A stretch of 64,000 bases of DNA. It comes from Bdellovibrionota bacterium. Its GTDB lineage: Bacteria > Bdellovibrionota > Bdellovibrionia > Bdellovibrionales > JAEYZS01. Where the stretch lies: the NCBI GenBank assembly GCA_040386775.1, contig JAZKEU010000012.1, forward strand, positions 124,001-188,000. Direction: 5' to 3'. Each line of letters starts with the position of its first letter. Position 1 is the first letter of the stretch. Of the stretch, positions 226-42,449 are shown piece by piece. The notes under the pieces were generated by a model that saw only the letters and a list, made by a program, of their open reading frames with translations, ran no database searches and was not told the DNA's origin. The position numbers and the translations under genes are program-made.

Positions 226-1059
226 ATGGGATTAAGAATTAGCACTAACATGCCAGCGTTAAACGCTCAAAGAAACCTGAAGAACAGTCAGGACGAAATT
301 TCAAACAGCTACGCACAATTAGCTAGCGGTAGCAGAATCAACAAATCAGCAGACGATGCTGCAGGACTTGCGATCTCTGAGAACTTAAAGGCTCAAATCA
401 GATCTTCAAGACAAGCCTATAGAAACGCTTCAGACGGTATCTCAATGGTACAAGTTGCTGAAGGTGGTTTGAACGAAATCGGTAACATCATCGTAAGATT
501 GAGAGAATTGGGAATCCAAGCAGCTTCTGACACTATCGGTGACAGAGAGCGTGGGTTCATCAATAAGGAAGTTGATCAACTTAAGACGGAAATGCAACGT
601 ATCGCGGATGTAACTACTTGGGGTTCTACTAAACTTCTTGATGGTTCATCACAACAGTTCGATTTCCAAGTTGGTATCAATAACAATGAAGCAGAAGATA
701 GAATCTCTTTCATGGCTCAAGAAAACGTTGCTACATTGGACGCTTTAGGATTAACAGGTGTAGATTACACTTCTAAAGAAGGCGCTCAAACATCATTAGC
801 ACAACTTGATGAAGCTCAATACAAAGTGAACGGCACAAGAGCAAACCTTGGAGCTCTACAAAATAGACTTCAATCAACTCTTAGTAACTTAAGCATTTCT
901 GATGAAAACTTAAGTGCTGCGAACTCACGTATCAGAGATACAGATGTGGCGAAGGCTTCTTCTGAACTTGCAAAGAACAACATTCTTTTACAAGCTTCAA
1001 CTTCCACACTTGCTCAAGCCAACCAAACTTCAGCAGTGGCATTGAAATTGTTATCGTAA
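226..1059 (+). CDS. fliC: Flagellin (FliC family)
   Basis: Structural subunit of the flagellar filament, exported through the flagellar type III apparatus. The 277-residue product has the conserved D0/D1 segments at both ends: an N-terminus beginning MGLRISTNMPALNAQRNL, the stretch SGSRINKSADDAAGLAISE near residues 34-52, and a C-terminus with SRIRDTDVAKASSELAKNNI followed by coiled residues ending ALKLLS. The central variable domain is very short, so this is a minimal flagellin, as is usual for Bdellovibrio flagellins of about 275 residues. A GGAGG site lies 9 bases before the ATG, and a strong terminator follows the stop at 1095-1124, so the gene is probably monocistronic. Bdellovibrio relatives carry several fliC paralogues; the copy number here cannot be judged from this window. 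Confidence 0.97.
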   Translation: MGLRISTNMPALNAQRNLKNSQDEISNSYAQLASGSRINKSADDAAGLAISENLKAQIRSSRQAYRNASDGISMVQVAEGGLNEIGNIIVRLRELGIQAASDTIGDRERGFINKEVDQLKTEMQRIADVTTWGSTKLLDGSSQQFDFQVGINNNEAEDRISFMAQENVATLDALGLTGVDYTSKEGAQTSLAQLDEAQYKVNGTRANLGALQNRLQSTLSNLSISDENLSAANSRIRDTDVAKASSELAKNNILLQASTSTLAQANQTSAVALKLLS

Positions 1060-36614: not shown

Positions 36615-37998
36615 ATGAAAATCTTTGCAAATTTAATGCTTGTTGTTACGGCAGCGACTTTACTGACGTCATGCAATTCGATGGACGATCAGACGATCGT
36701 GATCCCAGAAAGACAATCATTGGCCAATCCAAGTGTTGTGAAAAGGGACTTTAAAAGAATCAATTCTCAACACAAAGTTCTCGTGGGAATCATTGATTCC
36801 GGTGTGGATTACAATCAACCTCTTTTGGTTGAAAATATCCACTTCAAGTTGAATGACTTCGTATCATTACCTTCGGGCTTTGGTTACGATGTCTCCGGCG
36901 AAGACGTTTGGGCATCCCCTTTTATTGCGAGAACTTCGGATTATAATCCGGAGATTGGCCCAACCGAAAAACTAAAATCACAAACTGAAGCAAATAACAT
37001 TGCTCAACTATTGAGAGAAAATCCTGAGTTTGAAAGCTTCCTTAATCCTCTCAGACATAATGTCCAAGAAATTGAAACTTCCGCTTACCATGGAACTCAT
37101 GTGGCAGGACTTGCTTCATATGATGATCCTGAAATTGGAATATTGGGTTACCGCGTAATTCCTTTTAGCAGTAAATATAAAAATGGCGAACTTCTCGAAC
37201 AAGATATGGGAGATTTATTTATTGACCAAATCATTGCTGGTTCTAGTGCAGCAGTTCGGGACGGCGCAAGAGTGCTCAATATGTCATTGGGTATGATCGT
37301 AGATAAAAATTACGAAGATCTAAAAAAGTCAGAAGAAAGTGAAACCAAACACAAAGCAAGAGTGGCGAAACTCCGACAATTCGCTCTCGCAAATCCCGAC
37401 GTCGTGATTGTGGTTGCGGCGGGTAATGATGGGAAATGGGTCGACCAAGATGCTAGATTAGGTTTGCCTTGCGGAACAGATGCGCCTAACATTCTGTGCG
37501 TGGGCGCGACGGATGAGAATGGGAAAATCGCGAGTTTTACAAATATTCTGATGACAGAAGGAGCCTTTATTTTTGGCTATGGCGTAAATGTCTTGTCTAC
37601 GGTTCCTGAGTCTCTCCACGTCAAAATCTGTTTCTCAACTTGCAAATCAAGAGACGTTCAACAACATCGATTCTAAAGCAAAACTTGTAGCTGCCCTTAG
37701 AGAAGAGTGCCGAGATACAACGCTGACAGAGTTGAGCGGAACTTCGATGGCTTCACCGATCATCGCCAGACAAGTGGCCAAGATTTTGATTGAGAAACCC
37801 ACACTGAGTGGCGCTCAAGCCATCCAAACATTATTGTCAAAAGCTCAAAGCTACAAACTGGGTGCGGCTCAATTTGCAAGCCTTCGAGTTGAAAAACCAT
37901 CTTGGTCGAAAAAACCTAAGAAAGGTTTATGGTTACGTAGAAATTCTTTAAATGTTGAGAAAGAGTATTTTGACTTTATTGTTCCGCAATCGAACTAA
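36615..37998 (+). pseudogene. Frameshifted subtilisin-like lipoprotein protease
   Basis: Two overlapping frames together make one S8 protease. The first (36615-37676) has a lipobox (LLTSC near residue 20), Asp in GIIDSGVDYNQ, His in YHGTHVAGLA and Asn in VAAGNDG, and runs off into an unlike tail after GVNVLSTVPES. The second frame, one base on, carries the continuation with the Ser motif LSGTSMASPIIARQ and ends at 37998. The shift lies at about 37600-37620. One base inserted, or two lost, would explain it; a sequencing error or programmed shift cannot be excluded. As read, no active enzyme is made. Not a simple copy of the intact neighbour, since it lacks the long linker and has a lipoprotein signal. 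Confidence 0.8.
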
Positions 37999-39439: not shown

Positions 39440-40269
39440 AATATTTTGCAGCTCTTGCAATATGTTTTTTTACATTGAGCGCCCTCGCTGTATGGGAATT
39501 ACCAAATACTCCGATGACCGGAATTGGTGATCCTGGATCCTTTTATCTCAATAAAGAAAGCCTTACCCTTCACCTCTTCAATAATGATTATATTGGAGAA
39601 ACGGATAAGTTAATGACCGCTTCTGGGTCGCTGTTTCTCTATTGGCAGTCTTCAAAAAATCATGGTTGGGAACTCTCTGCACAGAGAAGACTTATCACTC
39701 CTATTATTAAAACTAGATCTGGAGAGCCAGCATTTGATCCGCCTAAAGGAATTTACGGGGATCAGCTCGAATCAAGACTTGGATATTCTTATGTCAATGG
39801 TCACTTCAAATTTGAGTCCGCGGTGAGTGGAGAATACTATGCTGGTCTTGGAGGCCATAGAATTACGGACTTTATCCATAAAGTGATCGGTGCAAAAGAT
39901 GAGACAGATAAGTATGGCGAAAAAATTGATAACTCTTTTCTAGCGGGCTCTATAGGCTTTGGCTTTCTTACCAAATATGCTCTCTTTATGGTGTACGGAC
40001 ATGAGAGTCCCGTGATGAGAGAGGCCATCGCTCGCTTAAATTTTGTGTTTGGCGGAAATTCTTTTAAAATCGGACTCCAAGGAGAAGTTGCTCAACAATT
40101 TCAAAGTGATTTTTACCTAGAAGATATCGAAAACTATAGATACGGCTACGGGTTCTCCATGAAATGGGACTGGTATCAACTCACCGCGAATTATGTATCG
40201 CCGTATTTAAAGTATGATAAGTACGGACAGTACTTTATTTCGCCACTGATTTTATCTTGGGAATTTTAA
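39433..40269 (+). CDS. Outer-membrane protein resembling lipid A deacylase LpxR
   Basis: 278 residues: signal peptide ([19 protein letters not shown]), then a beta-barrel ending LILSWEF. The early segment [18 protein letters not shown] fits the Asn-Asp and calcium-site region of the LpxR (DUF2219) family, and [17 protein letters not shown] fits the stretch holding its catalytic His. These points are recalled from the family, not from an alignment, and similarity elsewhere is low. If right, it would remove acyl chains from lipid A at the outer leaflet. Start lies inside the helicase gene's end, so it is translated with it. Confidence 0.5.
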
Positions 40270-40374
40270 TCCGATAATCGAATAGTAATTCGAAACTCAG
40301 GCATATTCTGTCTCAATTGCAATTATTTATCACTCAGCTGGTACTTGATATTTGCAATACAAAGAGATTGGCAT

Positions 40375-40630
40375 AACCAACCTCTTGAGGATCTTGAATC
40401 TCCACTATTCAAAGGAGATCAAAATGAAGAAACAACACCACCAATGTATGTTTCGGAAGTTTGTAAGGTTTCTTAAAGTAATTTTAAACTTAGCATTGCT
40501 TGGACTTGAAGTTATTAAAAGAATCAATGACCTTTTAAAGTAGTTTGATAGCTTGTTCCAACTTACTTACAACGGCTATCGATGGGCGTAAAACCTAGTG
40601 AGATTTAAGTGTCAAGGATAGAGGTTGGTT
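40375..40630. repeat. Long-range 11-base inverted repeat around the 39-residue gene
   Basis: AACCAACCTCT at 40375-40385 and its complement AGAGGTTGGTT at 40620-40630 enclose the small gene, 39 bases before its start and 76 bases after its stop. In an mRNA they could pair end to end. Confidence 0.55.
40424..40543 (+). CDS. 39-residue hydrophobic basic peptide
   Basis: The ATG at 40424 follows a near-perfect AAAGGAG at a spacing of 6; the earlier in-frame start at 40352 has none. The chain begins with MKKQHHQCMFRKF and ends with one hydrophobic helix flanked by basic residues (LKVILNLALLGLEVIKRIN), ending DLLK. This is the build of small membrane proteins and type I toxins, or of amphipathic helical peptides. 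It stands alone, with a 5' leader and an inverted repeat that could close the message. No antisense RNA is evident by eye. Function unknown. Confidence 0.6.
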   Translation: MKKQHHQCMFRKFVRFLKVILNLALLGLEVIKRINDLLK

Positions 40631-40636
40631 TGCCTT

Positions 40637-41140
40637 TTAGTCGTTGGAGATTACGGCGAATTTTACGTCTGAATAGCCGGCGACTGCGGAAGTGTGCATG
40701 ACTTTTCTTAGCATTTCATAGGCGAGGTCTTTGTCGGCTTGGACGAGGATCTTGCCTTCGAAAGTTACTGTGGAGTTCACTTTTGCGATGTCTTGAGTTT
40801 TCTTTGCTTCGGCATCTAGGAATTTGAATAATTCTGGGATGTAGTTGGTGTCTGAACCATCAACGTATTTTTTGTCGATTTGGCCTTCTGTAAGGTCGAT
40901 CACTTTTTGACCTTCAACGTATACGCCAGACTTTGAAACCATAAGCTTTAATACGTCCACTGGATTTGTTGTTGATTCTGATGGAGGCAAACGGATGTCA
41001 GCGCTTGGTGCGATTTGCACAGGGCTCGTTGAGTAACTTTTAATTAAGAATACCAACAGGATCACAAACATATCCACCATGGATGTAATTTGAATTTTAA
41101 AATTCTGTGGCAATTTCTTTTTACGTTTTGAGAAACTCAT
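40637..41140 (-). CDS. aglS: TolR/ExbD-family protein, AglS-like
   Basis: Inner-membrane motor subunit, 167 residues: a short basic N-terminus, one transmembrane helix with the proton-path Asp (SMVDMFVILLVFLIKSY), and a periplasmic peptidoglycan-contacting domain. Second of two adjacent TolR paralogues after a TolQ, the aglR-Q-S order of Myxococcus. Which of the two corresponds to AglQ or AglS is set by position only. Confidence 0.78.
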   Translation of the reverse strand: MSFSKRKKKLPQNFKIQITSMVDMFVILLVFLIKSYSTSPVQIAPSADIRLPPSESTTNPVDVLKLMVSKSGVYVEGQKVIDLTEGQIDKKYVDGSDTNYIPELFKFLDAEAKKTQDIAKVNSTVTFEGKILVQADKDLAYEMLRKVMHTSAVAGYSDVKFAVISND

Positions 41141-41142
41141 AG

Positions 41143-41682
41143 TTATCCTTCAAGTATGTCAGCAAAAGCGATTTCTGGGAACATCAAGTCCGTTTTTGCA
41201 GTGTTACCTGTTTTTTCGTCTTTGATGGTGAAACCTTCTTCGCCCGTTTTGATTTTTCTGATTTTATCGAGAGTCATTACGATTCTATCTAACGATATTT
41301 CTTTAGAAGGCTTTATTTCTAATTTGAAAATATCTTGATGCTTTCTCTTAATCGCTAGTGCCTCTCTGTAAAGAGCATCCATATTTGGCTTGCCGTCTAC
41401 TGCCGCAATTACGATGTCTGATTTTTTGCCACTCACAGTAACTTCAAATTTATAAGTCGTACCTTGGATAACCAAAGCCACCGTTACAGGGTTTGGTTTG
41501 TTCTTATTATTTTCGATGGCTTCAGCCACGATCTGAGGAATTTGTGCTTCGATCATGTTCACACGAAGAAACACAACACTCATCAGTAGCATCGGCACGA
41601 TCGCCACGATCACGTCCAACATCGGTGCAAGGTTGATGTCGAACGTTGAATCTGCCTTATCTCTGAATTTACCTTTTGCCAT
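41143..41682 (-). CDS. aglQ: TolR/ExbD-family protein, AglQ-like
   Basis: 179 residues with one N-terminal transmembrane helix containing the functional Asp (APMLDVIVAIVPMLLMSVVF) and a periplasmic domain ending FADILEG. Starts 47 bases after aglR ends; the next gene follows after 2 bases. Partner of the TolQ-like channel in a proton-driven motor. Confidence 0.8.
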   Translation of the reverse strand: MAKGKFRDKADSTFDINLAPMLDVIVAIVPMLLMSVVFLRVNMIEAQIPQIVAEAIENNKNKPNPVTVALVIQGTTYKFEVTVSGKKSDIVIAAVDGKPNMDALYREALAIKRKHQDIFKLEIKPSKEISLDRIVMTLDKIRKIKTGEEGFTIKDEKTGNTAKTDLMFPEIAFADILEG

Positions 41683-41729
41683 ACCTAATTATCCCTATAC
41701 AAATTTGCTTTCAAAAACTTCTAAATCAA

Positions 41730-42449
41730 TTAAGATACTTTTTTAGCTGGTGCTGGTGGGGGCGTGTGTAACGCAGTACCATTACCTAAGTTTGTTGGAT
41801 ATGCATTTGCCTCGTTCATCTCTGTAACGCCACGGCTTCTCAAGAAGTCGCAAAGTCTTTGCGTTGCTACGTCGATATCTGAAAACAACTTACCTTGTCT
41901 AATGTTCAAGAACGCATAAGCAACCATTACAGGAATTGCAACCATTAACCCTAATGCTGTCGCATTCATGGCAACCGAAATACCATCTGCTAATAATGTT
42001 TGTTTTTGAGTTGGGTCAGCAAAGCTCACCGCTTTGAATGACATGATCAGACCAGCAACTGTACCCAATAGTCCAATCAGTGTTACCACGTTAGAAACCA
42101 TCGGCAAGTAACCCAATCTCTTCTCTAGAGTTGGAACGATCTCCGAAGCCACGCGATCCACCGCTTTACCGATTTCTTCGTCACTTCTATCCGCTCTCTC
42201 CAAGATGATCTTCATCGCTTGAGCAATGGGCTTCTTGATGTTTGCAGAACAGAAAGCAATGCTCTCTTCAATTTTATTTTGTGAAACAAGCTTCATCACT
42301 TGATCTGTGAATGCTGTTGAGTTGATGTGGTAATCAAAGAATAGAACTTTTGCTCTTTCTAAAATCAACCCAATTGATATAATACCCATACCCACAATAC
42401 CAATATCGATGAGGTAATAATCTACTAAAATCATGTACATGTTATTCAC
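41730..42449 (-). CDS. aglR: TolQ/MotA/ExbB proton channel, AglR-like
   Basis: 239 residues: an N-terminal transmembrane helix (about 8-30), a cytoplasmic loop (GKAVDRVASEIVPTLEKRL) and two more helices with the family core LIGLLGTVAGLIMSF and MNATALGLMVAIPVMVAYAFL. The C-terminus is Pro-rich. Forms the channel with the two TolR-like proteins downstream. It is followed in the cluster by no other gliding gene, and preceded by the coiled-coil gene at 42574. Confidence 0.85.
   Translation of the reverse strand: MNNMYMILVDYYLIDIGIVGMGIISIGLILERAKVLFFDYHINSTAFTDQVMKLVSQNKIEESIAFCSANIKKPIAQAMKIILERADRSDEEIGKAVDRVASEIVPTLEKRLGYLPMVSNVVTLIGLLGTVAGLIMSFKAVSFADPTQKQTLLADGISVAMNATALGLMVAIPVMVAYAFLNIRQGKLFSDIDVATQRLCDFLRSRGVTEMNEANAYPTNLGNGTALHTPPPAPAKKVS

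Follow-up and report, generated by a model that had tools for sequence, protein, structure and literature searches.

A probable type I toxin-antitoxin-like family in the order containing Bdellovibrio, with end-to-end mRNA pairing and a predicted antisense RNA

The window analyzed here is a 64,000-nucleotide stretch of the Bdellovibrionota assembly GCA_040386775.1 (contig JAZKEU010000012.1, positions 124,001 to 188,000 of the forward strand), in which two convergent genes, ending at 40269 and 40637, enclose a small element. The peptide product of its ORF (40424-40543) is MKKQHHQCMFRKFVRFLKVILNLALLGLEVIKRINDLLK, and the sequence ahead of the ORF is AAAGGAGATCAAA. The features assigned to the element are as follows.

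40424-40543, + strand: ORF for a 39-residue cationic amphipathic membrane-type peptide (sequence, profile search, selection, structure prediction)
40414-40419, + strand: Shine-Dalgarno (SD) region GGAGAT (sequence)
40398-40403, + strand: anti-SD segment ATCTCC, which pairs with the SD in the predicted fold of the 5'UTR plus ORF
40370-40385, + strand: GGCAtAACCAACCTCT, 5' arm of the helix that joins the two mRNA ends (fold, repeat search, own-partner test)
40620-40634, + strand: AGAGGTTGGTTTGCC, 3' arm of the same helix, with TTTTA after it; predicted mRNA 3' end (fold, repeat search)
40340-40355, + strand: putative remnant of a sigma-54-type core, with GG at 40340-40341, GC at 40354-40355 and a predicted start at about 40367 (family motif)
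40451-40477, − strand: candidate FliA-type antisense promoter within the ORF, TTTAA-N16-CCGAAA, matching TTTAG-N16-CCGAAA at 10 of 11 positions (motif match and family statistics)
40352-40442, − strand: predicted antisense RNA of about 90 nt, lying over the start codon, SD, anti-SD and 5' arm
40362-40386, − strand: antisense terminator candidate, AAGAGATTGG-cataa-CCAACCTCTT, 10 bp with one G-U on the − strand (inverted repeat)

A preliminary description of this DNA had pointed to a 39-residue ORF with a good ribosome site and to 11-base perfect complements on either side of it, and sequence and translation confirm these observations. The complements, 40375-40385 (AACCAACCTCT) and 40620-40630 (AGAGGTTGGTT), form the sole perfect 11-nt inverted repeat in the region, with a spacing of 234 nt; 38 bases (rather than the 39 first given) separate the 5' arm from the ATG, and 76 separate the stop from the 3' arm. 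We calculate that chance alone would give about 0.016 such perfect complements in 371 bp. Folding of 40330-40640, which had been proposed as a check, gave a structure with paired ends and a minimum free energy of −76.8 kcal/mol (z = −2.44) that was equalled by one of 100 shuffled sequences, and the end pairing extends beyond the 11 nt to GGCA-t-AACCAACCTCT with AGAGGTTGGTT-TGCC, a helix of 15 bp with one bulge. Convergent to the element, on the − strand at 40637-42449, lie what we take to be two ExbD/TolR-like genes and a TolQ/ExbB-like gene. Elsewhere in the window, a subtilisin-type protease gene at 36615-37998 (+ strand) is split into two overlapping frames of 353 and 136 codons, with the GTSMASP part in the second frame, which suggests a frameshift or sequencing error, and a flagellin N-terminal domain, of which the genome has six, is encoded at 238-651 (+ strand).

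The peptide had initially been called an orphan, a label overturned by profile searches, which reveal a large family. A search of 39 genomes with the single sequence returned matches at E ≤ 1 in 13, several of them short SD-led ORFs and the others chance. A profile built from seven peptides found matches at E ≤ 0.1 in 59 of 140 genomes from the order, and at E ≤ 0.01 a 64-peptide profile did so in 51 of 143 from the class, every one of them in the same order. Across the phylum, with at most 20 candidates scored per genome, the 64-peptide profile matched 54 of 368 genomes, the three matches beyond the order being marginal (E = 0.006-0.008). With this profile, up to 14 matches occur in a single genome (14 in G088, 11 in G087, 10 in G095), and the window genome has seven. 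From the fetched DNA, 97 and later 111 non-redundant copies were assembled; the choice of ORF for this set demanded an SD-like motif, so the presence of an SD in the copies is partly circular. Some of the counts below omit copies with N, a non-ATG start or odd length, and because the copies are mutually related the counts do not represent independent events.

Named carriers include B. bacteriovorus kdesi, with three matches to the 64-peptide profile, and Bdellovibrio MAGs, and a promoter-pattern scan of genome contigs gave 39 stretches, six of them from Bdellovibrio (three from B. bacteriovorus kdesi and three from MAGs). B. bacteriovorus HD100 has no family copy detectable at E ≤ 0.1 with the seven-peptide profile or at E ≤ 0.01 with the 64-peptide profile. 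Viral contigs scanned with one promoter pattern gave a single match, in which reading the sequence revealed no element. Tandem arrays occur (in L048, four units stand 455-504 nt apart), and clustered or tandem copies were seen in other genomes at L048, L046, L047 and L049; in L049 a tRNA (1629-1702) stands ahead of the first of three copies. Locus L006 (G027) holds a deletion copy in which the 3' RNA part is fused into the ORF and the C-terminus of the peptide is gone; compared with L003 (G014), the deletion lies between similar GAGGYCCTT sequences. In L002 (G016), on the − strand at 2028-2202 and about 430 nt past the element ORF, another ORF has the N-terminus MPYHRNV..RRSRFRRI in common with it but differs in the rest (E = 4.1), and perhaps represents a decayed tandem copy. 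At 11 orthologous exbD-like loci of relatives, flanks of about 1.5 kb are free of the element. The decayed copy in L006 and the lack of an element at the exbD-like site of these 11 relatives fit a dispensable module.

Family peptides are about 32-47 residues long and have a variable polar N-terminus, R-R-x-L, K, an L/I/V-rich stretch and often a basic pair followed by DLL. Among 71 close pairs, differences at the three codon positions number 474/250/674 and pN/pS is 0.24, a pattern showing that the ORF is translated and that selection acts on its product. The hydrophobic moment of the last 28 residues averages 0.46 across the family, compared with 0.22 in shuffled sequences (0.53 for the window copy), the mean net charge is +5.5 (+7 for the window copy), and AlphaFold2 predicts a single helix spanning residues 5-38 (mean pLDDT 85). 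The element thus contains what a type I locus should contain, a translated gene for a small hydrophobic or amphipathic peptide. The early statement that no recognized toxin family matches agrees with the library models (Pfam, NCBIfam, PADLOC), none of which matches convincingly. With 64 peptides, five Pfam families were matched by one member each (best E = 0.027), and the Hok model is absent among the Pfam matches listed; with six peptides, NCBIfam gave zero matches above the curated cut-off. PHROGs and PADLOC, also searched with 64 peptides, gave isolated matches, each to one member (best E = 0.007 and 0.0098), which were judged unconvincing.

The pairing of the mRNA ends was compared across the family by matching each 5' region with its own 3' region and with those of other copies. 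In 97 copies the mean energy was −30.1 kcal/mol with the own 3' region and −21.6 kcal/mol with the others; the own partner ranked among the top three in 42/97 copies and was the best in 17/97. With a narrower 5' arm the values were −24.9 (own) and −16.4 (other), the own partner was among the top five in 62 of 94 copies, and none of 2000 permutations was as good. These ranks are lowered because close relatives can stand in for each other. For the window copy, the own 3' region beats those of all 96 others (rank 0), and has rank 2 on this scale with the narrower arm; the pairing fails in L104, L062 and L083 (ranks 89, 94 and 96 of 96). In an alignment of 13 copies, 26 of the 71 base pairs predicted for the consensus have changed on both sides, and pairing holds in 85% of cells; the consensus structure was derived from the same alignment on which it was scored. 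Loss of the inverted arms in relatives that keep the peptide had been named as grounds for discarding the original proposal; pairing instead persists while the arm sequences change. A 5'-3' long-distance interaction conserved among copies, as in aapA/isoA, is therefore present, and the comparison strongly supports arms that change together and an mRNA that would close end to end.

A second, local structure involves the ribosome site. The SD hairpin duplex has a mean energy of −12.3 kcal/mol with the copy's own upstream arm, −10.5 with the arms of other copies and −8.6 with shuffled arms, and none of 2000 permutations was as good; the own arm is among the top five in just 10 of 94 copies (the window copy ranks 63 of 94), and low ranks are to be expected where the SD is a conserved sequence. 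In the predicted folds of 87 copies, SD pairing averages 0.85 for the 5'UTR plus ORF, 0.83 for the mRNA minus its last 55 nt and 0.81 at full length. The folds themselves thus show neither an opening of the SD nor activation upon 3' trimming, and that step is borrowed from aapA and hok. In the window copy, SD pairing is 0.83 in the 5'UTR plus ORF and 0.29 at full length, where the site is mostly open because pairing of the 3'UTR draws in the anti-SD segment. Sequestration of the ribosome site is thus a property of the family (0.81-0.85), and of the window copy in the 5'UTR-plus-ORF fold only.

Upstream of the ORF, 57 of 97 copies carry GG-N10-TGCA, which we take to be the sigma-54 promoter layout, at 70-150 nt (typically about 87) 5' of the ATG; spacings other than 10, from 6 to 15, occur in 1-12 of the 97. 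The window copy falls outside the 57, with a GG-GC spacing of 12 rather than 10, and its paralogue L016 in the same genome has 10. A core was placed in 68 copies, 58 of which have a strong end helix; relative to the mRNA start predicted 12 nt downstream of the GC of the core, this helix begins at +1 to +4 in 39 of the 58. The promoter-predicted start and the 5' arm coincide, so that two independent features mark the same mRNA start. RpoN was found in 18 of 19 genomes tested, the window genome included.

According to the preliminary description, no antisense gene was visible; the family comparison leads elsewhere, to a FliA-type promoter under synonymous constraint and a terminator-like hairpin upstream. 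Synonymous constraint falls where the − strand reads TTTAG-N16-CCGAA; at four-fold sites in alignment column 25, T is found in 72/79 copies, compared with 41% overall. Read on the + strand, TCGG-N17-TAAA is present in 32 of 109 ORFs and in 4.4 of their synonymous shuffles, with other spacings from 8 to 27 giving 0-6. Matches of at least 10/11 to TTTAG-N16-CCGAAA occur in 38/109 ORFs (mean 5.8 and maximum 12 in 50 shuffles) and matches of at least 9/11 in 63/109 (shuffle mean 25.9, maximum 35); the 71 ORFs of 109 that score below 10/11 count against a type I reading. A scan of the window with at most one mismatch finds the site at 40451-40477 as the sole match, and since about 2.3 would be expected by chance, the site takes its weight from the family. 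In five of the seven copies of its own genome, the window copy (L001) and L016 have good sites and L052, L053 and L182 score 7-8/11. Generic sigma-70 antisense promoters were not enriched (11.03, compared with 10.98 in shuffles), and an antisense sigma-54 core lacked clear positional clustering.

A hairpin with a T-rich tail lies over the toxin start in 67/109 copies on the − strand and 35/109 on the + strand, and the stem score of hairpins in the start region is 16.5, compared with 10.5 in shuffled sequences. In the window copy, the antisense start is predicted at about 40442 and the T-run past the hairpin is broken (TCTTTGTATTGC). These signals predict an antisense RNA that would be transcribed from the FliA-type promoter inside the ORF and ended at the hairpin. 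The window genome encodes FliA (266.6 bits; cut-off 189.6), and among its six flagellin-type genes one has a clear upstream site, TCAAG-N15-CCGATA, and the others score 7-9/11.

A parallel exists in the same order. In the portion of PMC3627812 considered, the attack-phase promoter consensus TTAAG-N16-CCGATA is ascribed to FliA and APsRNA6 of B. bacteriovorus HD100 is assigned a FliA promoter; in HD100 DNA, TTTAG-N16-CCGAAA, identical to the antisense motif of the family, stands eight bases ahead of the mapped start of APsRNA6. Attack-phase sRNAs of HD100 differ in that this strain is without a detected family copy, and the peptide profile finds no match in the six regions examined around APsRNA1-7. 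A 3'UTR-like string, CCAACGTGTACA, is common to the family and APsRNA3, yet this sRNA is not counted as a copy because its locus recurs in 21 of 24 genomes from the genus. Its upstream DNA (L211, near 561854 in HD100) is 84.6% identical over 52 nt to flagellin-gene DNA of the window genome (L209), a likeness that perhaps reflects a common FliA promoter type. In APsRNA5 (L214, HD100 605441-605617, − strand), a 29-codon ORF follows AAAGGAGCCTTGA; the same portion of the 2013 paper terms this RNA non-coding (PMC3627812).

By analogy, the regulation is best explained as most like that of aapA/isoA of Helicobacter pylori. In the excerpted text of PMC6733600, the primary aapA mRNA is kept shut by pairing between its 5' and 3' ends, the nascent mRNA is shielded by transient anti-SD hairpins and the antisense RNA represses the toxin; several copies, an amphipathic peptide and an overlapping antisense are described there and in excerpts of PMC8309996. 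The family shares the small amphipathic membrane peptide, several chromosomal copies, 5'-3' mRNA closure, an upstream anti-SD hairpin that would guard the nascent mRNA and, as predicted here, a cis-overlapping antisense RNA. It differs in belonging to another phylum and in its sigma-54-type toxin promoter and FliA-type antisense promoter, and a comparison that ran through library profiles, with AapA sequences themselves outside it, gave no link. For hok/sok, the same excerpts of PMC6733600 describe 3'-end pairing that holds the full-length toxin mRNA inactive and 3' processing that activates it. The likeness is again a full-length mRNA pairing that involves the 3' end; the differences are that no Pfam match among 64 peptides is better than 0.027 and that the window is without an Rfam match. 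Nothing in the window exceeds an Rfam gathering score, and in ten relative loci only the neighboring tRNA of L049 does; the weak, scattered matches seen in the window and relatives at relaxed E-values were rejected. The orzO antitoxin is encoded separately from zorO, whereas the antisense signals of the present family lie inside the ORF. The two otherwise resemble each other in their tandem small-toxin copies with a ribosome site hidden by the 5'UTR, and tandem small hydrophobic toxins whose 5'UTR sequesters the ribosome site are described for zorO/orzO and similar systems in the excerpts of PMC8309996. Membership in a named toxin family, for which the library scans provide no match, is not claimed.

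Taken together, we consider it probable that the window locus is one copy of a large, unnamed type I toxin-antitoxin-like family of the order containing Bdellovibrio. The type I toxin reading of the preliminary description is upheld in its end-to-end closure, which the family comparison supports, and not in its orphan status or its lack of an antisense gene. In the mechanism that we propose, both strands would be transcribed. The toxin strand would give an mRNA of roughly 260-330 nt encoding a cationic amphipathic membrane helix, its ribosome site masked by the local anti-SD hairpin during synthesis. In the finished mRNA the first ~15 nt would pair with the last ~15 nt and close the molecule, and translation would need removal or rearrangement of the 3' arm. 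An antisense RNA of about 90-100 nt would start within the ORF, at the FliA-type promoter, stop at the hairpin over the toxin start and act as antitoxin, blocking or destroying the active mRNA over the start codon, SD and 5' arm; upon its loss, the peptide would harm the membrane of its own cell or stop growth. The window copy deviates from the family pattern in its sigma-54 spacing (off by two), its interrupted T-run and its SD, which is predicted to be largely open at full length.

The small membrane helix, the promoter types tied to regulated programmes and the ExbD-like gene beside the window copy would also suit a small membrane regulator without toxicity (acting, for example, on a membrane enzyme or on motility) under sigma-54 and FliA control, with fold-back and antisense providing dose control. 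However, the family shares no position with the exbD-like neighbor in the 11 orthologous loci (~1.5-kb flanks), and copies that vary in number, stand in tandem and in places have decayed better fit a dispensable module than a core regulator, which leaves this reading unlikely. It is considerably harder to hold that a regulatory RNA, sense or antisense, is the main conserved thing and the peptide secondary: the RNA architecture is strongly conserved and synonymous sites are constrained, but the pN/pS of 0.24 and the 474/250/674 pattern show selection on the peptide, and SD and ATG are retained in the analyzed copies (a partly circular point, the SD having been required at selection). A leaderless bacteriocin or prey-permeabilizing peptide, released by the predator, is barely credible; a cationic amphipathic helix (moment 0.46 vs 0.22 shuffled, charge +5.5) and predators among the hosts would accord with it, but the few neighborhoods viewed hold no obvious transport or immunity gene and, to our knowledge, antisense and fold-back control is untypical of bacteriocins.

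Judged by the titles listed, and with subscription journals mostly uncovered, the literature on Bdellovibrio and toxin-antitoxin systems yielded nothing on type I systems; by the same measure, none was found on this peptide family among studies of Bdellovibrionota small proteins, or on a link between FliA and type I antisense toxin-antitoxin systems. A search joining type I toxin, sigma54, antisense RNA and promoter gave, by title, only a myxobacterial sRNA, and the word 'Bdellovibrio' is absent from the excerpted text of PMC8309996.

For the type I toxin-antitoxin-like family proposed here, the many diverged copies constitute a natural set in which to study the folding that silences a toxin mRNA, and an antitoxin promoter inside toxin codons, through the synonymous constraint that it imposes, offers a route to finding type I systems by computation, with no need of transcript data. 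A toxin-antitoxin pair whose opposing promoters answer to two different sigma factors would be linked to the switch between attack and growth in predatory bacteria. Tentatively, and with more doubt than confidence, we suggest that the family is wired into the predatory life cycle in this way, with the toxin mRNA switched on via sigma-54 and the antisense antitoxin via FliA, which serves the free-swimming attack phase. If so, the balance between them would shift at the attack/growth switch, and the peptide would act less as a simple addiction module than as a brake or self-killing signal specific to one stage.
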